Below, piece by piece: positions 9,019-48,515 of a DNA stretch of 64,000 nucleotides (within the stretch, counting starts at the first letter, position 1; each line of letters opens with the position of its first letter). This DNA is from Corallococcus sp. AS-1-6 (GTDB lineage Bacteria; Myxococcota; Myxococcia; Myxococcales; Myxococcaceae): positions 186,001-250,000 of the forward strand of contig NZ_JAIQDE010000010.1 in assembly GCF_020037015.1 (NCBI RefSeq), written 5' to 3'. Both the position numbers and the translations under genes were made by a program. The notes under the pieces were generated by a model, which saw only the letters and a list, made by a program, of their open reading frames with translations, was not told the DNA's origin and made no database searches.

Positions 9019-9084
9019 GCCGATGACGGGGCGTGGGCCCCCGCTGGATGTCTCAGCGCTCCCGGTTCGAGTCCGGCATCGGCA
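9019..9084 (+). other. tRNA-like cloverleaf in the leader of the amidohydrolase gene
   Basis: Sixty-six bases fold as a complete cloverleaf. The acceptor is GCCGATG/CATCGGC (7 perfect bp) with a following A. The D-type arm is GGGG/CCCC with a 6-base loop. The anticodon-type arm is CGCTG/CAGCG with a 7-base loop. The T-type arm is CCGG/CCGG with the canonical loop TTCGAGT. It deviates from a true tRNA: no U33, 0-2 base connectors, a 4-bp T-stem and no A14. It may be a degenerate phage tRNA or a tRNA mimic. It ends 36 bases before the next start codon. Confidence 0.45.
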
Positions 9085-9120
9085 CTCCGTCCAGCCGCAG
9101 CACCCATCCCCAGGAGTCGT

Positions 9121-30798: not shown

Positions 30799-31338
30799 CT
30801 ACGCCGCCGCGCCGAGCGCCCGCTCCTTCCCGACGGCGATCAGCCAGTCGCGGAGGGTGGGCCAGGAGTCCTCCGCGATGAGCCCGCGCGCGAATGCGTT
30901 CGCCTGCCACTCGCGGACGAGCCCCTCGCCGCGCTGGAGCAGCCAAGGCCGCCCCCGGGCGGTCCGCTGCTCCAGCATGTACTTCTCGAACTCGGCCACC
31001 GTCTCCTCGAAGGTGGCCAGCGGGTTGTAGACGAGCCAGTCATAGCCCTTGTCCTTCGCGTAGAAGCGCTCGTCCTGGGCCGCCATCTCGACGGTGGAGT
31101 ACTTCCCCCAGTCGTCGCTGCTACCTGGGGCCGCGCCCCCAGACTCCAGTTGCAGCAGCTCCTGCTCGAGCGCCGTCTTCTTCACCAGCGTGGCGGAGTT
31201 CACCTCCGCGGCTGCTCGCGACAGCACGGCCGACGCGTCCATCTGCCCCTTGATGCGGGCGACCTCCAGGCGCAGGTCCCGCTTCCGGGCCTCGGCGGCA
31301 TTGATGGCGTAGACGTCGCTCTGCGTGAGGGTGGGCAT
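30799..31338 (-). CDS. Late protein next to the tail-tip genes, unknown
   Basis: 179 residues. The N-terminal half is helical and charged (AAEARKRDLRLEVARIKGQM, LVKKTALEQELLQLE); the C-terminal half is globular with many aromatics (KGYDWLVYNPLATFEETVAE, GRPWLLQRGEG). It starts 10 bases after the tail-tip stop. Position suggests a tail-fibre assembly or tip accessory protein, but I do not recognise a family. Confidence 0.55.
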   Translation of the reverse strand: MPTLTQSDVYAINAAEARKRDLRLEVARIKGQMDASAVLSRAAAEVNSATLVKKTALEQELLQLESGGAAPGSSDDWGKYSTVEMAAQDERFYAKDKGYDWLVYNPLATFEETVAEFEKYMLEQRTARGRPWLLQRGEGLVREWQANAFARGLIAEDSWPTLRDWLIAVGKERALGAAA

Positions 31339-31347
31339 GGCCGACTC

Positions 31348-33492
31348 CTAGATGGACTGCTTGATGTTGTGGCTGAGGAGCCCCTCGGACTCGTAGGTGC
31401 GGGCACCGTGCACGGTGAGCATCACGACAGCGCCCTCCCCTTCCGGCGCCACGCGGCGCACCAGTCCCGGGCGCAGGCCCTCCAGCAGCTCGCCGGGAAG
31501 CAGCGCGCGCACCTGCGTCCAGCCCGCGAAGCGCCGGTAGAGGAGGTGGTTGGGCGTCGCCACCAGGACGCGGCCGTCGGTGAGTTCCACCCGCCAGCGC
31601 GAGGCGCGGTGGCTGGATGCGGCCACCACCTCGAAGACGCCCACGCGGCGCGTCTCCTCGTGCTGGGTGAGGACGCGCATGCCGGGGCGAAGCTGCTCCG
31701 CGGGCACCTCCTGCCCGCCCGCCAGGGTGATGAGCGTCTCGGGCGCGACGCACGTGCCGCCCGTCCCACCGGAGCCCCCGCCCCCGCCCCCAGAGGGCCC
31801 GCCTGTGAAGGGCGCCGAGGCCGAGCGCGAGAAGCTGCTGTTGAGGCCGTTGCCGAAGATGGGGGTAAACCACGCGGCCGCGCTCACCCCGTAGACGTTG
31901 TGCACCTCCACCAGCAGAGCGACGTACTCACCCAGCCCCGAGCCAGCCAGTCCGGAGAGGGCGGCCGGCGCGTTGAAGGTGTGGCTCACCGCGAAGCGGT
32001 TGGAGGCGTTGCCCTCGACGGCGTTGGCGTACTTCCTGTCCGCGAGTGCGATGAAGCGCGTTCCCCGGAAGGTGGCCGCGAGGCTGGGCGAGCCGCTGTA
32101 GTAGTCCACCTTCAGGTAGCGGAGCGCGTCCAGGTTGTCGTCCACGCTGGAGGGCTGGACGAAGAAGTTGTGCGTCAGCCACGAGTGGACAAGGGGCGTG
32201 GAGTACTTCGCGTAGTCCGTGCACTGGACGTCCAGCCTGTCGATGAGCGGCGCGCCGCCGCGCACGCCTGTGTTGTTGCTGCCCCGGTAGTGGACGCGCC
32301 CTGCGGCCGACGTGCCGTCCAGGGCCTGGTTCGCCCGGAAGAAGGGCGTGTCCAGGAGGTAGCTGCCGATTTGGACGTTGCCGCCGGCCGCCTTGAAGGC
32401 GGTGCCCACGTTGTCCAGCTTCGCGCCGGCCACGGGCACCCCGTTACCGTCCTCCGCGTAGTTGGACGTCTGGAGGGTGTTGGCCACCAGCAAGTCGAAC
32501 GTCACCATCTTCCGCATGGAGACGGCGTCCACGTACACCGCCTTCCCGGTGTCGGAGCTGGCGGCGTTGATTTCGAAGTAGAGCTCGACGCCGGTGCACC
32601 CCGCTGGGCAAGCGCCCTTCACCTTCACGCGCTGGTACGCGGTGGTGAGCGTGACGAAGGTGCTCGTGGACTGGCCGCTGTAGGCGCCGCTGGCATCCTC
32701 CCAGAGGAGAATCAGGTTGGCGCCAGCCTGGGCGAGCGCGGCGGAGGACTTCACCCATGCCTCCGCGTAGAAGGAATCCCCGGCGGTGCAGCGGATGCGA
32801 CCGCCCGGCGCCGTGCTCTGGAAACCGCCGATGAAGTTGAGCCCCGTGTAGCCGCCCCCAGCCAGGACGGGCAGCTTCCGGCACCAGCGCCCCTCCTTCG
32901 CGTTGGAGGGCTCCTCCACGAGGCAGTCACCCTCGGGGAACTTCCCGACCGCCTCGGCCCCGGCCTCCGAGTACCCGTTGGGCACCAGATTGTCGGTGGG
33001 CGGCAGCAACAGGTGGGTGAAGCTGATGGCCTCTGGCGCCACCGCGGCGCTGGTGATGGAGCTGGCCGACATGTGCCGGGCGGAGACGCTGCCGGTGGGG
33101 ACGTTGGAGAGGTCCGCCACGGCCATGGTGACGGTGTCCGGGTCCGCCACCACGCCGCCGCCGAGGACGCGCCAGCTACTCTGGCTGCCGTTGGTGTAGA
33201 GGGCCTGGACGGCGCACTTCACCTCCGTCTGCGCCTTCAGCTTCAGCGGGGCTACCCACCGCCTTTCCGAGGGGCCGAACTTCCGCGGCTCCAGCAGGTA
33301 GCGGTCCGTGTCGTTGGGGTCGCTGCCCTCGTAGACGACCACCTGGAAGCCGGCGAGGAGGTGGGCGGGGAGCACCTCGTCGTGCGTCCAGCGGATGTCC
33401 AGGTAGCGCGACTTGACGAGTTGCGGAGAGCGGACGCCGTCCACCTCACGGTCGTAGATGCCGGCCGCTTCCTCCTGCTCGCGCGAGCGCAT
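31348..33492 (-). CDS. Tail-tip/central fibre protein with C-terminal Hint (intein-like) domain
   Basis: 714 residues, encoded right after the J-like protein and probably a split-off distal part of it. The N-terminus has a fibronectin-like region (YLDIRWTHDEVLPAHLLAGF), then carbohydrate-binding-like beta modules. A Gly-rich linker leads to a Hint domain at residues 581-709: Cys581 after the linker, then LITLAGGQEVP, T646-PN-H649, ARTYESEGLL and S-H708-N709. Only five residues follow the N, and the next residue is Ile, so ordinary splicing is not possible; self-cleavage or ligation remains possible. Tail function inferred from position. Confidence 0.75.
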   Translation of the reverse strand: MRSREQEEAAGIYDREVDGVRSPQLVKSRYLDIRWTHDEVLPAHLLAGFQVVVYEGSDPNDTDRYLLEPRKFGPSERRWVAPLKLKAQTEVKCAVQALYTNGSQSSWRVLGGGVVADPDTVTMAVADLSNVPTGSVSARHMSASSITSAAVAPEAISFTHLLLPPTDNLVPNGYSEAGAEAVGKFPEGDCLVEEPSNAKEGRWCRKLPVLAGGGYTGLNFIGGFQSTAPGGRIRCTAGDSFYAEAWVKSSAALAQAGANLILLWEDASGAYSGQSTSTFVTLTTAYQRVKVKGACPAGCTGVELYFEINAASSDTGKAVYVDAVSMRKMVTFDLLVANTLQTSNYAEDGNGVPVAGAKLDNVGTAFKAAGGNVQIGSYLLDTPFFRANQALDGTSAAGRVHYRGSNNTGVRGGAPLIDRLDVQCTDYAKYSTPLVHSWLTHNFFVQPSSVDDNLDALRYLKVDYYSGSPSLAATFRGTRFIALADRKYANAVEGNASNRFAVSHTFNAPAALSGLAGSGLGEYVALLVEVHNVYGVSAAAWFTPIFGNGLNSSFSRSASAPFTGGPSGGGGGGSGGTGGTCVAPETLITLAGGQEVPAEQLRPGMRVLTQHEETRRVGVFEVVAASSHRASRWRVELTDGRVLVATPNHLLYRRFAGWTQVRALLPGELLEGLRPGLVRRVAPEGEGAVVMLTVHGARTYESEGLLSHNIKQSI

Positions 33493-33502
33493 GCCCTCCC
33501 GT

Positions 33503-35983
33503 TTACGGAGGGGGCGTGGACGAAATCCCCAGGGTGAGGGTGGCCGGCACCGTGGGCGCCGCGAGGATGAGGACGCTCGCCGTGCCGGTGCTGTAGTTGC
33601 CCGAGGTGTCGATGGCCTTCACGTACACCACCTGGTTGACGCTCGGCACCGGCAGGGCCCACTCGCACGTGGTGGCGCGCACCTTGCCGATGAGGGTGCC
33701 CGCCTCCCAGCTTGCGCCGTAGCGCAGCTCGTAGGTGTCCCTGTCCAAGTCCGGCACCTCCGCCCAGCGCAACGTCGCGGTGTTGCCGTTGAGGGCATAG
33801 CTGAGGCCCGTCACGTCCGAGGGCGGCGCGGCCTTGCCCTGCACGGAGTAGCTGGCCGAGGCGTAGGTGGTGACGAGTCCGTTGAGGACGGCGGCCACCT
33901 GCACGGTGTACGCGCCCGGCAGGCAGTCCAGCAACTCCCAGTAGTGCGTCTGCACCGGCGCCTCCGACGTCCAGTTGCCGCCCTCGCGCTGCCAGCGCAC
34001 CCGGTACTCGGTGGCAGTGGGCACCTGCGTCCACCGGGCCGTCGCCATGACTTTCACGCCGCCATTCGTCGTCTTGTACAGCGACTCGCCCACCACCAGC
34101 CCCGCGGGCGGCGCGGACGAAGGCAGCACGGACGTGGGCAGCGGCTGCAGCTTCACCCCGTACTCCACCTCCGCGTACTTCCCCGGCTCGTGGCGCAGGG
34201 CGGTGATTTCGTAGAGGTGCGGCTCCACCTCCGCCACGTTGAGGATGCGCCAGAGGGTGGGCGTCAAGTCGGACGCAGCCAGCACCCAGACGGCGTGGGG
34301 CTGGGGCGCTGCCGCGAAGGGCGTAGCCACGGTGAGGGCCCGGTAGGGTGCCGGCGCGAGCGCGGCCAGAGGGCGCTCCTCCACCGTGCCGTCCGGCAGC
34401 ACCACGGAGAGGGCGTACGTCTTCCCCGCCTCCAGGGTGACGTCGGCGTCGAGCTCCACCTGGCTGGCGGTGGCGGCCACCACGCGCCCACCCCACCGGC
34501 GTCCGGCCCGGTACGGGTCCTGGAGCTTCACGACGGCGCCGGGGTTTCGCATGGCTCCCTCGAAGCCCGTGCGGAACGTCACCGTCTCCGTCTCCAGCCG
34601 CTCCGTGAGGAGAAGCCATCGGCCCACGCGCTGCGCCTGGCCCCGCGAGGTGCAGCCGAGCGCCACCACCTCGGTGGGGTTGTAGCCGTAGGTGGCGAGG
34701 CCCTCCTCGTCGGTGACGTACTCCTGCGCCGCCTTGAAGTGGTTGTCCGGGTCGTTCCAGGTGACGAGCGCCACGGTGTGCCGCGCGCGCTTCCCGCTGG
34801 AGGCGTAGGTGAAGAGGCCGTCCACCACGTTGGCCGGCGTGAAGAGGTACTCGGCGTCGCGCGGCGCGTCCTGGGCGACGAAGACGGCGCCGGAGGCCCA
34901 GTACGTCATGCCTCTGAAGACGGACGCGAGGTTGTTGATGACCTTGTACGCGTCCTCCTGCGTCTGGAGGTAGAGGTTGCAGCGGAAGCGCGGCTCCGTG
35001 CCGCCCTTCCCGTCCGGCACCAGCTCGTCGCAGTACTTCGCCACCGTGTAGAGGCCCCATTTGTCCACCGCGGCCTCGTTGAGGTAGCGGCCCAGGCCGT
35101 ATCGCTCCGTGGTGAGCAAGTCGTAGAAGCACCAGGCCGGGTTGTCCGTCCAGGCCACCTTCCACGTGCCGTCCCAGGTGCCCTCGTACGTCCGGGCCGA
35201 GGGGTTGTAGTTGCTGGGCACGCGCACCCGCAGCCCGCGAATCCGGTAGCTGCGCGTGGGGATGCTGGAGAACTGGCTGGCCGCCACCTGCAGCGCGCAC
35301 AGCGCGGTGTTGGGGAAGCTGAGCTTCTCGTCCAGCAGCGTGGCGTAGGACTTCCAGATGACCCTGTTCTGCGTCGTCACGCTGTCCGCGTCCTCGCTGA
35401 CGCGCGTGACGCGGATGTCCCAGGGCGGTGCACCCGTCAGCTCCACGCGGAAGGTGCGCTCGTAGGGGCTGGTGCACTTCCCTCGGAAGTACTCCGCGCC
35501 CTCGAAGTCCTGAGTGACGTACCCGCCCCCATTGCTCTGCACGGCGATGGAGACGAGGACGGAGGTGGGCTTCAAGTCGCCCGTCGTGGGATTCTGGTAG
35601 GTGAGCTGGGGCACCTGGAGGGTGAGGCGCACCGCGTCCACCTCCGCGTCCGTCACCGTGCGCACCACCGGGGCCGCGTGCTTCACCTCCACGCCCACGG
35701 AGTGCTCCGCCTCACCGGAGGGGAAGCCGGGGATGTACTCCTGGGACTGGGTGCCCTTCACGTCGTACACGGTGACGCCCGTGAAGTTGAAGGTGCCGTC
35801 GGGGTTCTGGATGGCGACACCGTCCAGGTAGACGGACTTCAGCCCGTCCACGAGGCCCTGAATCTCCCCCTCGCACAGCAAGTCCAGCACGCGCGCCTTG
35901 GAGCTGGACTTCAACGTGTTGGGGGACTCGACGGGCGTGCGCTGTGCACCGCCCTCCCCCTTGCCGCCGCTGCTGCCGCCCAT
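33503..35983 (-). CDS. Host-specificity tail-tip protein, lambda J-like
   Basis: 826 residues. The N-terminal 400 residues match the lambda J core: SKARVLDLLCEGEIQGLVDG, SVYLDGVAIQN, RITR/VRV strands, NRVIWKSYATLLDEKL and AWCFYDLLTTERYGLG. Several fibronectin-like repeats follow from about 600 (ATEYRVRWQREGG, DTYELRYGASWEAG). It forms the tail tip that contacts the host receptor. Lambda J is longer (1132 residues); here the distal part is a separate gene downstream. It starts one base from the I-like stop. Confidence 0.9.
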   Translation of the reverse strand: MGGSSGGKGEGGAQRTPVESPNTLKSSSKARVLDLLCEGEIQGLVDGLKSVYLDGVAIQNPDGTFNFTGVTVYDVKGTQSQEYIPGFPSGEAEHSVGVEVKHAAPVVRTVTDAEVDAVRLTLQVPQLTYQNPTTGDLKPTSVLVSIAVQSNGGGYVTQDFEGAEYFRGKCTSPYERTFRVELTGAPPWDIRVTRVSEDADSVTTQNRVIWKSYATLLDEKLSFPNTALCALQVAASQFSSIPTRSYRIRGLRVRVPSNYNPSARTYEGTWDGTWKVAWTDNPAWCFYDLLTTERYGLGRYLNEAAVDKWGLYTVAKYCDELVPDGKGGTEPRFRCNLYLQTQEDAYKVINNLASVFRGMTYWASGAVFVAQDAPRDAEYLFTPANVVDGLFTYASSGKRARHTVALVTWNDPDNHFKAAQEYVTDEEGLATYGYNPTEVVALGCTSRGQAQRVGRWLLLTERLETETVTFRTGFEGAMRNPGAVVKLQDPYRAGRRWGGRVVAATASQVELDADVTLEAGKTYALSVVLPDGTVEERPLAALAPAPYRALTVATPFAAAPQPHAVWVLAASDLTPTLWRILNVAEVEPHLYEITALRHEPGKYAEVEYGVKLQPLPTSVLPSSAPPAGLVVGESLYKTTNGGVKVMATARWTQVPTATEYRVRWQREGGNWTSEAPVQTHYWELLDCLPGAYTVQVAAVLNGLVTTYASASYSVQGKAAPPSDVTGLSYALNGNTATLRWAEVPDLDRDTYELRYGASWEAGTLIGKVRATTCEWALPVPSVNQVVYVKAIDTSGNYSTGTASVLILAAPTVPATLTLGISSTPPP

Positions 35984-35984
35984 G

Positions 35985-37043
35985 TCAGTCCTCCACCGTC
36001 GGGTCCGCCTTCTTGACGTTGTGGCTGAGGAGGCCGTCGGAGACGTACGTGTGCGCGCCCGCCACGGTGAGGCGCACCACGGGGCCTCGCTCGCCGCGCG
36101 TCACCTGGCGCACCACGCCCGGCCGCGCGCCCACCAGCCGCGTGCCGGCCGCGAGGTGGCGCAGCTCCACCCAGGCGTCCTCCGTCCGCACGCGGTGGTT
36201 GCCTGTGGCCTCCAGGCGCCGGCCGTCCTCCAGCTCCAGCAGCCACCGCACGCCCTCTGCGGGCTCCGCGGCGGTGACGAGGAAGCAACCCCACTCCAGC
36301 GTCTCCTCGTCCTGGGTGCGCACCAGCATGCCCACCTGGACTTCGCCCGCGGGCAGCTCGCGTCCGTCCGACAGGAGGATGGGCACCCACGGCGCAGGGC
36401 AGGTGCCGCCACCCGGCTCGGCCCCGCCGGGGCCCGTCTGCCCGCTGCCGCTGCTGCCTCCGAAGCCACCATCGGACCACTCGGTGACGATGCCGGCGGA
36501 GACGACGCAGCTGCCCACCTCCATCTCCCCGTAGCAGATGGGCACCGGGTGGCCCTGGGCGAGCGTGTTGACGGGGCCGTTGAAGACGTAGCTGGGCTTG
36601 TTGGCGTCGTCCTCGTCCGGCCCGGTGGCGTTGGGAGGGGCGAAGAGGAGCTGCGAGACGCCGCCTACCACCAGGGAAATGCCCGCGGTGATGAGGGGCA
36701 CGCCCGCGCCGTACCCGTAGACGGAGAGGACGGCACCGGCGGCGATGAGCACCGCGCCCGCCACCACCTGGAACCAGCCCGACTTCGCCCCCGCCAGCGC
36801 GGGCATGAGGGCGAGGACGCGCGCGCCGGTGGGCATGCCCAGGTCGTCCTCCCCCACGTCCCGCTTGCCCGCGAAGACGTGGTAGCCGGGCTCGCTGTTC
36901 TCCGCGAGGTAGCGCCGGAAGCCGTCGCAGACGGCCGAGAGGGCCCGCACCGCCTCCGCGGGCGAGGGCACACAGAGGTCCAGCTTCCAGACGCGCCCGA
37001 AGCGCTTTCCCAGGGGCCCGCCCAGGACGATGGTCGTCAGCAT
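35985..37043 (-). CDS. Tail assembly protein I-like, with C-terminal Hint domain
   Basis: 352 residues from ATG 37043, overlapping the K-like stop. Residues 1-85 fit the beta-grasp (ubiquitin-like) domain of lambda I. A hydrophobic stretch (AVLIAAGAVLSVYGYGAG, ISLVVGGVSQLLF) follows, then HPVPICYGEMEVGSCVVSAGI as in lambda I. After a Gly-rich linker comes a Hint domain: C215, LLSDGRELP, T280-GN-H283, AHTYVSDGLL, S-H341-N342, then 10 residues starting with Val. Lambda I has no such domain. It is clearly homologous to the Hint on the distal J protein. Confidence 0.85.
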   Translation of the reverse strand: MLTTIVLGGPLGKRFGRVWKLDLCVPSPAEAVRALSAVCDGFRRYLAENSEPGYHVFAGKRDVGEDDLGMPTGARVLALMPALAGAKSGWFQVVAGAVLIAAGAVLSVYGYGAGVPLITAGISLVVGGVSQLLFAPPNATGPDEDDANKPSYVFNGPVNTLAQGHPVPICYGEMEVGSCVVSAGIVTEWSDGGFGGSSGSGQTGPGGAEPGGGTCPAPWVPILLSDGRELPAGEVQVGMLVRTQDEETLEWGCFLVTAAEPAEGVRWLLELEDGRRLEATGNHRVRTEDAWVELRHLAAGTRLVGARPGVVRQVTRGERGPVVRLTVAGAHTYVSDGLLSHNVKKADPTVED

Positions 37044-37768
37044 CGGGAGGAGTGCCTCACGACGCGCTGGGTGATGCGCGCCCAGAAGCCGGAGTACGTC
37101 TCCCGGCCGGACAGGCGCCCCATGACGTGGTGCAGGAGGACATCCCCGCCCAGGTACACGCCCGCGTGGTTGGGCACCGGGGCGCGCAGCTGCATGAGGA
37201 GGACGTCGTGCTCGCGCAGGGGCTGGCCAGTGACGTCCACGAAGCCCGCCCGGCCGAAGCCGTCCAGGTAGAGGTTGCCGCCCTTCGCCCACCAGTCGTC
37301 CGGACGCTCGAAGTCGGGCAGCGTCAGGCCCAGGCGCTCCCGGTAGTAGTCCTGGATGAGGGAGTAGCAGTCCAGGACGCCGTGACTGAAAGTGCGGCCC
37401 ACCAGCGGCGGCCGGTAGCCGTCGGGGTACCAGAGGCGCCAGTGCCCCACGGGCACGTTGAGGATCAGCCAGGGCAGGCCCCAGCGCTCCATCATCACCC
37501 GGTCCGCCTCGCTCGGCTCCGGCGCGGCGTTCGGGTGGGAGTGCACCACCGCCAGCACCTCGCCCTCCCCTTCTGCCCGCGCGTAGTCCTCGGGAGATAG
37601 AACGAAGTGCGCTTGGCCGTCGGCGAGGTTCCGGCAAGGGCGGTACCGCTGGGAGCAGTCCACCAGCACCACGAGGCCGCAGGACTCGCGCGGGTACTCC
37701 TCCTGGGCGTGGGCGAGCGCGGCGCCCAGAACGTCATCGGCCAGCGTCAGCCGGCAGGGGTCGACCAT
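37037..37768 (-). CDS. Tail assembly protein K-like: JAMM protease plus NlpC/P60
   Basis: 243 residues. The N-terminal JAMM/Mov34 metalloprotease has E28 (PRESCG), H76-S-H78-P, then S86 and D89 with the correct HSHx7SxxD spacing. The C-terminal NlpC/P60 hydrolase has Cys134 (HGVLDCYSLIQDYY) and His201 (NHAGVYLGG). In lambda, K works with I during tail tip assembly and may open peptidoglycan on entry. ATG 37768 is preferred; ATG 37804 is possible. It overlaps the I-like start by 7 bases. Confidence 0.9.
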   Translation of the reverse strand: MVDPCRLTLADDVLGAALAHAQEEYPRESCGLVVLVDCSQRYRPCRNLADGQAHFVLSPEDYARAEGEGEVLAVVHSHPNAAPEPSEADRVMMERWGLPWLILNVPVGHWRLWYPDGYRPPLVGRTFSHGVLDCYSLIQDYYRERLGLTLPDFERPDDWWAKGGNLYLDGFGRAGFVDVTGQPLREHDVLLMQLRAPVPNHAGVYLGGDVLLHHVMGRLSGRETYSGFWARITQRVVRHSSRC

Positions 37769-37903
37769 ACCGACATGGTGAAGACGGGCGTGGACGGAAT
37801 CCACCGCCTTGCACAGACGCGCCGCCCTCGATTAACGAGGCGTCTCAGTCACCACCCCTCAAACACGCAACCCACCACAGCTTCATCGAACAAGCACAAA
37901 CAA

Positions 37904-38630: not shown

Positions 38631-39326
38631 CTACCTGATGAGTCCCACTGCAGGGAATCCGCCGTACGGGAGGACGTTCCTCTCCCCGAAGCGCAGCTTG
38701 CAGCTCGCGAGGCGCTTCCCGCAGCGGTCCTCCGGGGCGCCGGACGTGGGCGTGTCGTCCAGCTTCGCCACCGGGGGCCCCGCGTAGCCGCAGCCCTCGC
38801 TGCGGTACTCCCACGGGCACATCTGCGTGATGATGCGCAGCGGGATTCGGACGCCGTCCAGGTCGCACTTCGCGGCCAAGCTGAACTCGATGACGTGCTT
38901 GTTCTCCACCGTCTTCTGGTCCACCACGAACTCGTCGTCCGGGAAGGCGTCCAGCGGCGAGGCGGTGGGGTTGACGCCTCCGGGGAAGTTCACCGCGTCC
39001 AGGTAGCGGACGAAGGTTCGCTTCCGGAGGACACGCGCGCCCAGCAGGTCGTTCAGGTCCCGCGCCATGGCGCCGATGGTGCCGGCGACGTTGGCGAGCG
39101 TCAGGGTGGGCCTGGGCAGCCGGCCCATACCGGACTTGTCGAAGCCCTTCACCTGGATGGCCCAGGACTCGTACGCCATACCCTGCCAGACGACGGGCCC
39201 GCGGAGGCCGTTGGTACCAGCGTGGAAGTGGCTGGCGCCTCCGCCAGGCAAGTTGGTGGCGTCCAAGACGAAGAGCTCCACGAGAGCCCCCGCGTCCAGC
39301 CTCTGGATGTCGCTGGCGATGCTCAC
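38631..39326 (-). CDS. Minor tail protein L-like
   Basis: 231 residues from GTG 39326, overlapping the M-like stop. N-terminal SIASDIQRLDAGALVELFVL is typical of L. The C-terminal part has conserved cysteines (AKCDLD, MCPWEYRSEGCGY, RCGKRL, SCKLRFG) like those that hold the iron-sulphur cluster of lambda L. It builds the tail tip together with M, K, I and J. The gene order M-L-(insert)-K-I-J follows lambda apart from the insert at 37.9 kb. Confidence 0.85.
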   Translation of the reverse strand: MSIASDIQRLDAGALVELFVLDATNLPGGGASHFHAGTNGLRGPVVWQGMAYESWAIQVKGFDKSGMGRLPRPTLTLANVAGTIGAMARDLNDLLGARVLRKRTFVRYLDAVNFPGGVNPTASPLDAFPDDEFVVDQKTVENKHVIEFSLAAKCDLDGVRIPLRIITQMCPWEYRSEGCGYAGPPVAKLDDTPTSGAPEDRCGKRLASCKLRFGERNVLPYGGFPAVGLIR

Positions 39327-39910
39327 CCGGCCTCCTCCTGGAACGTCGCGGTGAAGTCGTAGGCGTTGAAGCCCTTCGCGACGCGGTGCCACTCCTCGCA
39401 CACCACGTGCGCCACCAGCTCGCCCGCGCCGGTGAAGGTGAGCACGGCTCCTGCGGCCGGCGCCGCGGCGAAGGTGACGAGGCCCGAGGCGGCCAGGCCG
39501 AAGTCCGTCCCCTCCACCTGGGCGACATCCGCGACGTAGACAGTGGGCGGCGCAGTCCAGCCCGTGGCAGGCACCAGCAGCCCCGGCACCTCCGGGGACA
39601 GCGGCCGCTGCAGGAGCCACTGCGTCTGGGCCCCGTCCCCCACCCCAAAGGGCTGGGCGGTGACGGCCCAGGCCGTGTCCGGGGTGACGAACTCGAAGGC
39701 CTCGACGCCCGCGCGGGCGCGCAGGAAGGCCTCCAGGCCGTCCGCGTCCACTTTCGAGAGGTTGGAGAACTGGAGGGCCCAGCGCCGCAGGACGGGGTTG
39801 AGGCCGTCCGCGGAGCGCTGGGTGTAGCCCTCGCCGAACTGCGCCTTGCGCACCCGGGGCACCGAGTCCGCCTGGGCCCCGTAGTCCGGGGTGAAGAGGA
39901 AGCGATCCAT
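39323..39910 (-). CDS. Minor tail protein M-like
   Basis: 195 residues. The N-terminal part is the short M domain (MDRFLFTPDYGAQ, FGEGYTQRSADGLNP, RRWALQFSNLSKVDADGL). The C-terminal extension (about 85-195) adds a beta-rich module (TVYVADVAQVEGTDFGL, AVLTFTGAGELVAHV) and ends with the M-like YDFTATFQEE. Lambda M is 109 residues, so the inserted central module is an addition. Its stop overlaps the L-like start. Confidence 0.8.
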   Translation of the reverse strand: MDRFLFTPDYGAQADSVPRVRKAQFGEGYTQRSADGLNPVLRRWALQFSNLSKVDADGLEAFLRARAGVEAFEFVTPDTAWAVTAQPFGVGDGAQTQWLLQRPLSPEVPGLLVPATGWTAPPTVYVADVAQVEGTDFGLAASGLVTFAAAPAAGAVLTFTGAGELVAHVVCEEWHRVAKGFNAYDFTATFQEEAG

Positions 39911-44774: not shown

Positions 44775-47700
44775 TTAGCGCCCCCGGACGAACGTGTACG
44801 TCATTCCCCCGGGAGCCATCTCCTCGCGCATCACCTTGCGCACGGCGTCCGCGAGGCGCCGCCCCAGACGCTCCGCCTCCGCGCGCCCGCCCTCTCCTGA
44901 CGCGCTCACCTGGGAAGAGCCGTCCGCGTTGACGGTGATGGTGATGGGAATCTGCACGTCCCCGCCCCCCAGTGCCTCGTTGGGGACGATGCGGCCGGAA
45001 CTGGAGGGGATGAAGAGCTCCGGCCCGAGTTCGCCCACCAGGTGAGCCTGCTGCGCACGGACAGGACCGCCGGCCGCGTGCGCGCCGCCCAGCATGAAGC
45101 CGTAGGTGCTGCTCATGTCCGCGCCGCCAACCAGCGTGGAGCCGCTGCCGGACGACACCGTGCCACCGAGGGCGTCCATGCCCAGGTTGACGAGGGCCAT
45201 GAAGGCCTTCTGCGCCGCCAGCCGCGCCAAGTCTTTCAGGATGCCGTCCACCAAGGCGGAGAACTCCAGCCGGCCCGTGGTGACGAAGTTCGCGAAGGCG
45301 TCCGCCATGTGCTGCGTGGCCGTGCCGACGATCTCCTTCGTGTAGGAGAAGCCGCCGTGGAGCTGGTCCTGGAGGCGCTCCACCTCCTGCCGGTACTGCT
45401 CCGCGGTGATGCGCCCCTCGGCGAAGAGCTGCTTCACCATCTCCAGGCGCTTCTGCAGCTCCGCCGTCGGGTTGAGCTGCTTGGCGAGCTGATCCATCTC
45501 CGTCTTCAACGCGGCCTCGGCCTTGCCCTCGGGAGTCCACATCGCCCGGGCCTTCTTCATGGCCGCTTCGAACTCCGCGGCCTTGAGGCGCCCGGCCTCC
45601 AGTTCCTCGCGGAGGAGCTTCTGGGCTTGGCTGTACTTCTCCGTGTCCTGGTTGCCCAGCTCGCGGTTGAGTCCCTGGAGTACGCGCGCCCGCTCCTCCT
45701 CCGCCTTCTTCACCCGCTCCGTCTCCTCCTTCTGCTTCCGGAGGGCCTCCATCTGCGCGATGGCCGCGTCCGCCCGCGCGATCATCTTCGGGTCCTTCAG
45801 CGAGCGGTACTCGTCGGATAGCTCCTTCGCCTCGTCCTTCGTCTTGCCGAGGGTGCGCGCCTCCTCCTCCAGATTCATCAGCCACTGCTCCTGGCGCTTC
45901 AGCAGCTTCTCCCGGGCCTTCTCCTCCTGCTCCGCCTCTTTGAGTGCAGCCTTCGAGTGGTCGCTGGCATCCTTCGCCTCGGCTGCGCTCGCCTTCGCGT
46001 CCTCTGCTTTTGCCGCCCTAACCCGTTGAAGACTCTTCTCGATGTCGGCCGCACGCTGCATTTGAATGCCGAGATCCTTCTCCAGGGGCGCGAGGTACTT
46101 CTCAATGTCATCGGCGTAGTACGGATCCGCGCGAATCTTTGAGAACGGCACGTCGCGAGCAGTATTCGCTCCTTTCCCTGGCACAGTGGCGCTATTGACA
46201 ACAATCCTTCTCTTCATGCCGGTAACAGGGTCATTGATCTCCTTTTCGAGTCGCGCAATCTCGGCCAAAGCCGCCACTCGATCTTCCATGGCAAGGCTTT
46301 CGTAAACCCTGACGATATCCTCCGCGGAGTCGCCAACGCTTTTCAGGGCATCCTGATATCTCCCACCCAGTGACGCCATCTCCGTACGGGCGATGGTGGC
46401 CGCTTTCTGCGCCTGCTCGTAGTCCTTGAGTGCCTTTGTTTCGCGGATGAGGTTCTCCGCGATTTGACTGCCACGGACGGCGTTGGCGCCGCTTTCCTGG
46501 GCGAACTGCCGCGTCTTCTCCTTCGCGTCCTCGGCGGCTTTGCCGTACTCGTGCCAGAGGGCAACCGCCGTGGTGAGCGCGCCGGTGATGATGCCGATGG
46601 GGCCTCCCATGAACTCCAAGGCTGTCTTCCCCGCGCGTGCAGCCAGGGACGCGCCTTCGATGGCTGACGCCTCTCTCACCTTCGCCAGCGCCAGCTCCGT
46701 GGAAGCCAGCGTGGCCCGCTTCGTCGCCGACATGAGGCTGCCCTCCACGGCCGCCGAAGCCTGGAGTGCCGCGAGTTTTTTCTCCAGCATCGCCTGCGCC
46801 GAGCGGAGCGCGGCGATGCGACTCTCGTCGGCGGCTCGGGCGTACTTCGCCTCGGCGAGCGCGGCGCTTGCAGCGGACTCGCGCGCCTGGGTGAGCGCGG
46901 TGGACTTCGCCACCAGCCCCTTCACCCACTCCTGGGCCCACGCGGCCCCGCGCATCGCCGCCACCACCACCAGCGACTCACCGAAAAGCTTCACCGCGTA
47001 GGTGGCCGTCTCGAAGTTCTCCGTCAGCGCGCGGACGCTTGGCTCCGTCGCGGAGAGGATGTCGCCGCCCACCTCGCCCTGGAGTTCCGAGAAGCGCGCG
47101 CGGAGCTGGTCGAGAGCGAACTGCGGCGTCGAGGCCATCTTGCTGAAGGCGGCCTCCGTGCGCCCGGCGGAGTCCTGCATGTGCTTCAGCGAGGCCGCGA
47201 AGTCTGCGGAGGCGGTTCCGGTGAGCGTCATCACCGGCAGCAGGGCCTCCACGCCCCCGAAGAGCATGGCCATCTCCTCGGTGCTGCCGCGCGTCTTCTC
47301 GTTCACGTCCTGGAGGAAGCCGGCGAGCCCCTTGGCCTTCAGCGCAGCGACAGAGAACTCCAGGCCGAGTGCGTCCGCGAGCTTCGCCGCCTCGTGAGAC
47401 GGCTTCGCGACGGCGGCGATGATGGCGCGCAGTCCCTCCATGGAGGTGGACGTCTGGATGTTGTTCTTCGTCAGCGCGCCTGTGGCTGCGAGCAACTCCG
47501 CGAGGCTGACGCCCGTCTGGGACGCGATGGGGGCCACCCGACCGATGAAGCGCGAGAGGTCCTCGATGCTCGTCTTCCCGTCCGCCGCGGAGACGAACAT
47601 CATGTCCGCCGCCTGGGTGACGTTGCGCAACTGGCTCCCATAACTGGCCATGACACCGGTCAAGCCATCCGCCGCCGTCCTCACGTCCGTCACGCCGCCG

Positions 47701-48515
47701 ATGGCCAGCTTGTTGGACACGGTTAGCAACTCCGTGGCTTTCGCCGCGTCGCTCGCACCCGCGCTGAGGATTTCGTAGAGGGCCCCGGCCTGATCCGTGG
47801 GCGTCCGCCCGAACTGGTTTCCCAGTTCCTTCACCTTCGCGGTGAGCGCGTCCATCATCCCGAGTTGGTCCTGCTCCAGCACCGTGGAGACCTGGGCCAT
47901 GGCCGTGCTGAACCGCAACGCCTCCTCGGTGGCGCTCTTGATGGCCGCGCCCGCCGCAGCGACGCCGAGGAATTGGCCCGCCAGCCGCTTCATCCCGTCC
48001 GCGAACTTGCTCACCGGGGGCTCCGCCTTCGCAGCCTCCTCCTTCGCCTTGCGGAGGGCATCCGCTACCCCCTCCTTCTGCTTCCCCATCTCGTCGAAGC
48101 GCTTGTTGAGGGACTCCACGTGCGTCAAGAAGCGGGACAGAGCGGACGTGTCCGCCAGGGTCGCCTGGAGCTTCCCGGCCGCGCCTCCGAGGGACATGAG
48201 CTGGGCCTCCAGCGCCCCCGTGGCCGTCGCGGTCGCGGTGAAGGCCGTCTGAATCTTCGCGGCGGACTGCTCCAACACCGAGAGGTGCGAGGTGGCGGCC
48301 CGGATGTCGGCCAGCGCCTTCGAGGTGCCGTCCAGGCTCCGCGTCGCGCGGGCGAACGCCTTGGTGAGGGCCTCAGTGGCGTTCTCCAGCCCCGTCGTCC
48401 TCCGCTCCGTCTTCTCGGCGGCCTCCTCCAGCCCGCCCAGCGACGTGACGGCCTCCTTCGCTTCGGAGGTGTCGATGCGGAGGCTCAGCTCAGCCAAATC
48501 AAAGCCACCAGACAT
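44775..48515 (-). CDS. Tail tape measure protein
   Basis: 1246 residues. The N-terminal part has a TP901-type core (MSGGFDLAELSLRIDTSEAK, GTSKALADIRAATSHLS, then FSTAMAQVSTVLEQDQL and the IGGVTDVRTAADGLTGVMAS region). A long coiled-coil middle (EEKAREKLLKRQEQWLMNLE) follows, and hydrophobic segments near 500-650 (PIGIITGALTTAVALWHEYG) fit membrane insertion on DNA entry. The protein sets tail length and plugs the tube. The distance from the tail chaperone gene fits the lambda layout, apart from a + strand insert at 48.6 kb. Confidence 0.9.
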   Translation of the reverse strand: MSGGFDLAELSLRIDTSEAKEAVTSLGGLEEAAEKTERRTTGLENATEALTKAFARATRSLDGTSKALADIRAATSHLSVLEQSAAKIQTAFTATATATGALEAQLMSLGGAAGKLQATLADTSALSRFLTHVESLNKRFDEMGKQKEGVADALRKAKEEAAKAEPPVSKFADGMKRLAGQFLGVAAAGAAIKSATEEALRFSTAMAQVSTVLEQDQLGMMDALTAKVKELGNQFGRTPTDQAGALYEILSAGASDAAKATELLTVSNKLAIGGVTDVRTAADGLTGVMASYGSQLRNVTQAADMMFVSAADGKTSIEDLSRFIGRVAPIASQTGVSLAELLAATGALTKNNIQTSTSMEGLRAIIAAVAKPSHEAAKLADALGLEFSVAALKAKGLAGFLQDVNEKTRGSTEEMAMLFGGVEALLPVMTLTGTASADFAASLKHMQDSAGRTEAAFSKMASTPQFALDQLRARFSELQGEVGGDILSATEPSVRALTENFETATYAVKLFGESLVVVAAMRGAAWAQEWVKGLVAKSTALTQARESAASAALAEAKYARAADESRIAALRSAQAMLEKKLAALQASAAVEGSLMSATKRATLASTELALAKVREASAIEGASLAARAGKTALEFMGGPIGIITGALTTAVALWHEYGKAAEDAKEKTRQFAQESGANAVRGSQIAENLIRETKALKDYEQAQKAATIARTEMASLGGRYQDALKSVGDSAEDIVRVYESLAMEDRVAALAEIARLEKEINDPVTGMKRRIVVNSATVPGKGANTARDVPFSKIRADPYYADDIEKYLAPLEKDLGIQMQRAADIEKSLQRVRAAKAEDAKASAAEAKDASDHSKAALKEAEQEEKAREKLLKRQEQWLMNLEEEARTLGKTKDEAKELSDEYRSLKDPKMIARADAAIAQMEALRKQKEETERVKKAEEERARVLQGLNRELGNQDTEKYSQAQKLLREELEAGRLKAAEFEAAMKKARAMWTPEGKAEAALKTEMDQLAKQLNPTAELQKRLEMVKQLFAEGRITAEQYRQEVERLQDQLHGGFSYTKEIVGTATQHMADAFANFVTTGRLEFSALVDGILKDLARLAAQKAFMALVNLGMDALGGTVSSGSGSTLVGGADMSSTYGFMLGGAHAAGGPVRAQQAHLVGELGPELFIPSSSGRIVPNEALGGGDVQIPITITVNADGSSQVSASGEGGRAEAERLGRRLADAVRKVMREEMAPGGMTYTFVRGR

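Follow-up and report, generated by a model that had tools for sequence, protein, structure and literature searches.

Why should proteins at the tip of a phage tail end in domains related to inteins? The question is raised by a 64,000-nucleotide stretch of Corallococcus sp. AS-1-6 (contig NZ_JAIQDE010000010.1; hereafter the window, meaning the whole stretch analyzed), part of a 9.5-Mb genome, in which searches with PHROG and Pfam recognize a lambda-type tail module on the minus strand. Two of its tail-tip proteins, a homologue of lambda protein I and a distal J-type protein that we call J2 here, each carry at the C-terminus a Hint domain followed by a short tail. Our best reading, which we hold tentatively, is that these are self-excising Hints in which a tail lysine stands in for the usual +1 nucleophile and receives the thioester, forming an isopeptide. 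With the same reserve, and jointly with that mechanism, we regard both as catalytically competent Hints of the bacterial intein-like (BIL) type that would process the C-termini of their own tip proteins.

Both tip proteins end in a Hint domain

A first-pass annotation of the window had claimed that the two proteins end in related Hint domains with their catalytic residues intact, and structure prediction of both C-termini, set beforehand as a check, did find a Hint fold in each. AlphaFold2 gives block means of the predicted local distance difference test (pLDDT) between 87 and 96 for residues 221-340 of I and between 77 and 93 for residues 581-710 of J2, both models being of low confidence outside the Hint parts, and the horseshoe characteristic of Hints is present in both predicted structures. 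The ten best Foldseek matches of either model are solved mini-inteins and BIL domains (for I, E-values of 3e-11 to 3e-10 and target template modeling scores of 0.75-0.84; for J2, 1e-9 to 7e-9 and 0.74-0.85), and the first 18 rows of a VIA-align comparison with the I model, at Z of 18.3-20.3, are inteins or BIL domains throughout. A profile of 17 sequences matches the Npu DnaB mini-intein (E = 9.4e-12) and a Clostridium thermocellum BIL domain (2LWY, E = 9.8e-9; fold Z 18.4) whose aligned end is also His-Asn. Both domains stay below the Pfam gathering scores of the Hint families, the best for J2 being Hint_2 at 18.5 bits against 28.4 and I scoring 13.9 bits against 35.8 for Intein_splicing; we ascribe this to the sensitivity of the models, because some Hints of the wider phage set described below do pass. 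The relationship between the two domains is plain, with 64 identities over 129 aligned columns (50%) and a local alignment score of 272, where 1000 shuffles gave 62 at most.

Cys1, the block-B [TS]xxH motif, and the terminal His-Asn are present in both Hints. Among 47 unique relatives (16 of I, 12 of J2, 11 from proteins of loci without I, labeled R1080, and 8 others), the block-B His and the His-Asn occur in all 47 and Cys1 in 46 of the 46 that reach that far, the R1080 row L070 being a fragment without it. Inteins hand their N-terminal thioester to a Cys, Ser, or Thr at +1, the position directly after the Asn. As the earlier annotation had pointed out, this residue is Val343 in I and Ile710 in J2, and 10 and 5 residues follow the Asn, so that both the nucleophile and a real C-extein are missing. 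A His-Asn end with a non-nucleophilic +1 residue is instead the sequence pattern of type A BIL domains, as defined in a review (PMC7765530) together with the title of Dassa et al. (2004).

The ratio of non-synonymous to synonymous substitution (omega), estimated by the Nei-Gojobori method from three close and three distant relatives and rough in such GC-rich genes, comes to 0.22 (I Hint) and 0.23 (J2 Hint) with the close relatives. The rest of J2, at 0.26 against close and 0.65 against distant relatives, is under about the same constraint as its Hint; the 5- and 10-residue tails, which amount to 15-30 codons, are uninformative in this respect. We argue that the Hints are active because the active site is invariant, more than because of omega, and both the invariant residues and the close-relative ratios support the suggestion made at first pass that self-cleavage, or transfer to an amine, could take place.

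A lysine follows the terminal asparagine

The short tails of I and J2 do not vary freely: in the alignments, a lysine always occupies the second position, K344 across 19 aligned sequences of I and K711 across 18 of J2. Lys occupies +2 in 16/16 I, 12/12 J2, and 11/11 R1080 Hints (39/39), and the tail is 5 residues long in the 12 lambda-like J2 Hints; the eight other relatives comprise five with Lys at +2 and three, related to one another, that end in Ala-Thr-Lys-Leu. A Lys close downstream of the Asn, which we take to define a class resembling the BIL2 domain discussed below, is thus found in both proteins of the window.

To see how far this extends among phages, we scanned IMG/VR with DNA patterns for T-Y-x3-G-x-L-S-H-N and, as a contrast, for its V-H-N version, each giving at least 120 stretches. 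Cys1 and the positions after the Asn lay outside the pattern, and His-Asn is conserved by construction in these two sets, unlike in the myxobacterial set. Removal of duplicates left 104 SHN and 97 VHN places with Hint support, three unique unsupported places being excluded; the counts that follow are among the matches listed. Where +1 is not Cys, Ser, or Thr (n = 139), Lys is found at +1 or +2 in 115 Hints, at +3 to +6 in 17, and within these positions in none of the remaining 7; by set, Lys stands at +1 or +2 in 82/84 SHN and 33/55 VHN Hints. Where +1 is Cys (n = 41), Lys is never at +2 and lies within six residues in 4. When the Hints without Cys, Ser, or Thr at +1 are clustered at 50% identity, 53 clusters result, with Lys at +1 in 24, at +2 in 20, and at +3 to +6 in 3, that is, within six residues in 47/53, compared with 18% expected from equal windows of the same proteins. 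This expectation was computed on 190 of 248 Hints, the 58 with short or unplaced starts being excluded, which leaves 6 of the 41 with Cys at +1; the filtered set therefore holds few such clusters, and Lys occurs in 0/5 of them, the unfiltered contrast being the 41 Hints. Cys1 begins 51 of the 53 clusters, and the remaining two run off a contig end.

The position of the lysine ranges from +1 to +6 and includes Gly-rich tails such as GGGNKR and GGGKK. Some Hint proteins terminate exactly at His-Asn-Lys: of 13 tails of one or two residues (7 clusters), all but one end in Lys, the exception ending in Lys-Asp, while 5% of 1023 other open reading frames of at least 250 amino acids in the same loci end in Lys. 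Among Hints of the C-terminal class, no residue is as frequent as Lys at +1 (28/116) and +2 (53/110), and from +3 to +12 Lys falls outside the top five. The lysine is not confined to protein ends: in internal Hints without Cys, Ser, or Thr at +1 it stands at +1 or +2 in 31/31 SHN and 7/9 VHN cases. A C-terminal bias toward Lys was considered and rejected as the general cause, given that 5% figure and the lysines of internal Hints. As a control we used myxobacterial toxin-type Hints (PT-HINT), for which 30 loci were read, 14 without a recognizable motif; 16 unique rows, one of them a false WHN place, left 15 true motifs, of which one has Lys at +1 or +2.

Two unusual arrangements were seen on the way. 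In L091-L093, an internal Hint in a protein of 674-786 amino acids is followed by Lys at +1 and by a further ~290-385 residues (L172 and L205 come from the same contigs as L091 and L092, and in L092 and L093 the Hint-like pieces are incomplete). In L151, L156, L185, and L233, which form one lineage, several Hints per protein lie between Pro-rich linkers, as if only some stay active: a copy without Cys1 is followed by Arg-Arg, Leu-Lys or Lys comes after copies that keep both Cys1 and His-Asn, and another copy keeps Cys1 and has lost His-Asn.

The two Hints often occur together

The first-pass annotation had also suggested that the two domains form a matched system and had proposed a survey of their co-occurrence in myxobacteria. 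Across 145 genomes of the order we found eight full-length I genes, plus two fragments in G095 and a weak match in G065, and in 8/8 full-length genes a Hint lies in the same open frame after the I domain. Both Hints are present in 12 of 14 distinct lambda-like loci with a readable J2 (the window, L003, L004, L005, L006, L007, L008, L018, L054, L055, L059, and L060); L012 and L013, where the contig ends inside J2, are outside the 14. The other two distinct loci, L009 and L020 (identical to L068 of G116), combine an I-Hint with a 637-residue J2 that has no Hint. Ten more myxobacterial loci (L056-L058, L061-L066, and L069), three of them in the single genome G118, encode a protein of ~1,080 amino acids that shares the C-terminal half and the Hint of J2, and no lambda-I gene is found within the 12-19.5 kb read around them. 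In a tree of the Hints, which has few columns for its rows and several weak forks, the I-Hints group together against the other groups (support 94/78), and the J2-Hints fall into two sets, one of them weakly placed beside the I-less proteins (82/69). A recent duplication between the I and J2 genes is unsupported, the I-Hints grouping apart from the J2-Hints.

The survey therefore supports the proposal only in part: within this group of phages the pair is frequent but not obligate, and the idea of a matched system is weakened because the I-Hint stands alone in two loci and the J2-type Hint in ten. From the locus survey and the tree grouping, the Hints look like a module separately attached to, or retained on, tip proteins; cross-linking of the tail tip by them is possible. 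A 179-residue gene directly downstream of J2 could be a partner, chaperone, or acceptor. It is present in 12/12 lambda-like loci with a J2-Hint and in 0/2 where J2 has none (L009; L020/L068), and it also occurs in L024 and in L069, the only one of the ten I-less loci in which it was found. In IMG/VR, 8 of 221 Hint-bearing loci have two Hint reading frames among the matches listed, several of these being intein parts or partial matches. Another phage contig, L245, has two nearby genes that each end in a Hint followed by Ile-Lys (HNIKVYIGL and HNIKAATEVL), neither of which matches a PHROG or Pfam family at an E-value of 0.001.

A proposed mechanism and its alternatives

Under the reading we favor, the Hint would fold at the end of the tip protein, as the predicted models suggest, and Cys1, with the block-B Thr or Ser and His, would convert the bond before it to a thioester, a step to which the invariant residues point. 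The amine of the Lys shortly after the Asn would then attack the thioester to form an isopeptide, which we propose because the Lys is conserved and because BIL2 provides a precedent. Cyclization of the Asn would release the Hint, leaving I and J2 with ends of the form ...GGGT or ...GGT, each carrying a short tail peptide as a cap, attached by way of the Lys side chain; the aligned relatives of I have, just before Cys1, either GGGT or GGG preceded by Ser, Val, or Gly. About 130 residues per subunit would thereby be removed from the tip, the Hint acting as a transient C-terminal pro-domain, and the Lys would speed this removal and make it irreversible, as compared with reliance on thioester hydrolysis. 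In the lambda virion, residues 135-223 of gpI are described as a trimer that plugs the tip lumen, and gpK is described as absent (PMC10721106). Since the gpI fragment of 9e7m aligns to residues 117-196 of our I (phmmer) and the Hint starts at residue 215, three Hints would hang from such a plug unless removed.

A precedent for such chemistry is BIL2 from the BUBL1 locus of Tetrahymena thermophila (6Y75, 6TMM), which is among the closest folds to the I Hint (Z 20.1 over 137 residues, 18% identity). BIL2 is reported to splice between ubiquitin-like domains by a peculiar mechanism that gives an isopeptide to Lys, and its authors call it an ATP-independent ubiquitin-dispensing platform (PMC8616854). 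The two differ in their setting: BIL2 lies in a eukaryotic polyubiquitin-like locus with a full ubiquitin-like acceptor downstream, whereas the Hints of I and J2 have a tail of 5-10 residues with Lys at +2. The Npu and Ssp DnaB mini-inteins (4O1R, 1MI8), the closest or near-closest solved sequences and folds, are inserted within helicases and use a +1 nucleophile to splice, unlike the Hints of I and J2, which are terminal and have Val or Ile at +1. PT-HINT of polymorphic toxins (PF07591) likewise ends in His-Asn, the myxobacterial examples mostly being VHN, and differs in having 63 to 217 residues after the Asn in the stretches retrieved and in the rarity of Lys at +1 or +2 (the 1/15 given above). 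The intramolecular chaperones of tail fibers differ from Hints in fold and chemistry. They are C-terminal domains with a Ser-Lys dyad that are described as cleaving themselves off after aiding trimer folding (PMC12403621).

A wider version of the proposal, which we consider more doubtful, is that phages hold a widespread class of Hints with a Lys at +1 to +6 as acceptor in place of the +1 nucleophile, by which tail and other structural proteins would process themselves and be sealed or joined through isopeptides made independently of ATP, and that I and the deubiquitinase-like JAMM peptidase K make up a minimal phage system that activates, conjugates, and edits with no E1, E2, or E3. Lambda-type I proteins are described as having a ubiquitin-like N-terminal domain, and the JAB peptidase of K as probably processing it (PMC1779556). 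The combination in one operon of a Hint, an I of the ubiquitin-like type, a putative thioester site at GGGT or GGG, and a JAMM peptidase is suggestive; the link between JAB and I, however, needs no Hint, because lambda has K and I and no Hint.

Of the alternatives, we give most weight to plain autoproteolysis, although we think it unlikely: the thioester would be hydrolyzed or attacked by a small thiol or amine, and the Lys would aid catalysis or orient the tail without forming an isopeptide. The invariance of Cys1, the block-B His, and the His-Asn speaks for it, a Lys so close behind the last catalytic residue could have an electrostatic or acid-base role, and BIL domains are described as cleaving at both their N- and C-ends (PMC7765530). 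The variable position of the Lys and the Gly-rich tails are nevertheless easier to reconcile with a tethered nucleophile than with a catalytic residue at a fixed place. Transfer in trans, which extends the first-pass idea, seems improbable to us; the thioesters of I and J2 would pass to amines on the host surface or on further proteins of the tip, so that the tip would be fixed or the phage anchored covalently, and K could edit the products. BIL2 is reported to pass a ubiquitin-like domain to other proteins, including a Ras GTPase (PMC8616854), and the ubiquitin-like domain of lambda-type I, paired with a JAB-bearing K (PMC1779556), and the 12 of 14 loci in which both tip proteins have a Hint point the same way; yet lambda has K together with an I whose resolved chain stops at residue 223 with no Hint (PMC10721106), the loci with one kind of Hint make a matched pair unneeded, and the Lys in cis is the nearer acceptor.

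Classical splicing of the BIL type A kind proceeds by cyclization of the Asn, after which the freed alpha-amine attacks; here that amine, of Val or Ile, would take the thioester and leave a normal peptide bond. A His-Asn followed by a non-nucleophilic residue suits an A-type BIL domain, and the title of Dassa et al. (2004) reports that BIL domains splice without a C'-flanking nucleophile, in view of which the earlier statement that normal splicing cannot occur in these proteins was too strong. We still find this route very improbable: it leaves the Lys unexplained, it would join just one residue in proteins ending in His-Asn-Lys, and A-type BIL domains are described in a review as unable to ligate (PMC7765530). 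Least probable of all, in our view, is that the domains are dead or selfish leftovers, degenerate mini-inteins persisting harmlessly at a terminus. Their lack of an endonuclease (128-129 residues), the degenerate copies in tandem-Hint proteins, and an omega of 0.60-0.69 against distant relatives would agree with decay, while the invariant active site, the omega of 0.22-0.23 against close relatives, and the attachment of Hints to several kinds of tail protein argue against it.

Several observations weigh against a lysine acceptor and self-excision. What we have is a predicted fold, a set of residues, and their conservation, from which we infer the chemistry throughout. Omega rises to 0.60 (I Hint) and 0.69 (J2 Hint) when the relatives compared are distant, and the I Hint shows no stronger constraint than the remainder of the protein, which stands at 0.13 against close and 0.46 against distant relatives. 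Residues 345-352 of the I tail have a pLDDT below 50 in the AlphaFold2 model. Among the matches listed, Lys is at +2 in 9/21 Hints with Ser or Thr at +1, showing that Lys and a hydroxyl nucleophile can coexist, and in 6/53 clusters the six residues after the Asn include no Lys, which is thus no strict requirement. The control set of toxin-type Hints is small, and its contrast is confined to +1 and +2, Lys lying within six residues in 6/15. Finally, a C-extein of one residue is odd for a splicing product, and the Lys may be catalytic or electrostatic.

Lysine-type Hints on other phage proteins

When 48 C-terminal proteins with Lys-type Hints were compared with PHROG, the named families matched were mostly those of the tail: the tail fiber family phrog_5616 in 9, the central tail fiber J family phrog_31 in 6, and the tail protein family phrog_376 in 5, with several further families in one or two each; one virion structural and one terminase family were matched as well, and the other families matched have no assigned function. 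The sole member of phrog_32 (tail protein I) among the 48, L223, is the same protein as L008. Lys-type Hints are thus chiefly, though perhaps not only, on tail and other virion proteins. While 1450 phage records have an I homologue, a tblastn query with the I-Hint returned three phage records, two of which are helicase entries of one phage, in a search that could miss distant Hints, and a scan of genome contigs with one long pattern gave three loci only. In the VHN-type loci L260, L275, L261, and L338, the Pfam model AXH (the ataxin-1 module) scores above its cut-off on part of the Hint, with E-values down to 1.9e-22, which suggests that the AXH and Hint models may be linked.

The tail module of the window

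The lambda proteins gpI, gpK, and gpJ have homologues in I, K, and J of the window (Table 1). Residues 2-188 of I match phrog_32, tail assembly protein I (E = 8.7e-55), and I is homologous by phmmer to solved gpI chains (PDB 25vf, and 8iyk of lambda at E = 2.9e-22); the Pfam model Lambda_tail_I gives 17.1 bits against a cut-off of 23.8, and the AlphaFold2 model is below a pLDDT of 50 over residues 1-87. K lies directly upstream of I, in agreement with the first-pass annotation, and its stretch HSHPNAAPEPSEAD, as read from the sequence, fits the JAMM consensus (PMC300881). The J of L054 (L054:8222-10987) aligns to that of the window in two stretches with ~70 extra residues between them. The sole tRNA gene that ARAGORN finds in the window, a Thr tRNA with anticodon tgt at 9019-9085, is a possible attachment site.

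Table 1. Positions of the Hint domains, their tails, and the surrounding tail genes (window coordinates unless a locus is named)
Feature	Positions	Strand	Basis
Lambda-I-like tail-tip protein, 352 aa	35985-37043 (stop included)	minus	phrog_32 and gpI chains
I-type domain (N-terminal part and plug region), I residues 1-190	36474-37043	minus	phmmer to gpI chains
Gly-rich linker, I residues 191-214, ending GGGT before Cys215	36402-36473	minus	sequence
Hint of I, Cys215-Asn342, 128 residues	36018-36401	minus	alignment, predicted fold, catalytic residues
I tail VKKADPTVED, Lys344 at +2	35988-36017	minus	alignment
J2, distal tail protein, 714 aa	31348-33492	minus	weak tail PHROGs (E = 4e-4, 1e-3); gene kept after J in relatives
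Hint of J2, Cys581-Asn709, 129 aa	31366-31752	minus	alignment, predicted fold, catalytic residues
J2 tail IKQSI, Lys711 at +2	31351-31365	minus	alignment
179-aa gene, family unknown	30799-31338	minus	
J, central tail-tip protein, 826 aa, without Hint	33503-35983	minus	phrog_31 (E = 1.8e-288); FNIII-A_GpJ, Phage-tail_3
K, JAB (JAMM) and NlpC/P60 protease	37037-37804	minus	Pfam Prok-JAB (E = 1.9e-18), NLPC_P60 (E = 1.4e-10)
L	38631-39458	minus	
Minor tail protein	39323-39910	minus	
Tape measure	44775-48515	minus	
Two Hint genes of L245	L245:1332-3512 and L245:4645-7386		

Implications

Phage Hint domains are already known from annotation, as names in BFVD attest, and autoprocessing of BIL domains without a +1 nucleophile is already described (PMC7765530). 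Within the open-licence subset of PubMed Central we found no account of Hints on phage tail proteins, nor of the lysine rule or the attachment of a Hint to lambda I, any of which may have been described earlier elsewhere. If the proposed mechanism is true, Lys would join the Cys, Ser, and Thr of inteins and the cholesterol of Hedgehog as a further attacker of the Hint thioester, and these domains could be a source of compact, Lys-selective ligation tools. For the phages themselves, it would mean that some tails are chemically matured, and that phages may trim or covalently tag their tails by an unusual chemistry.

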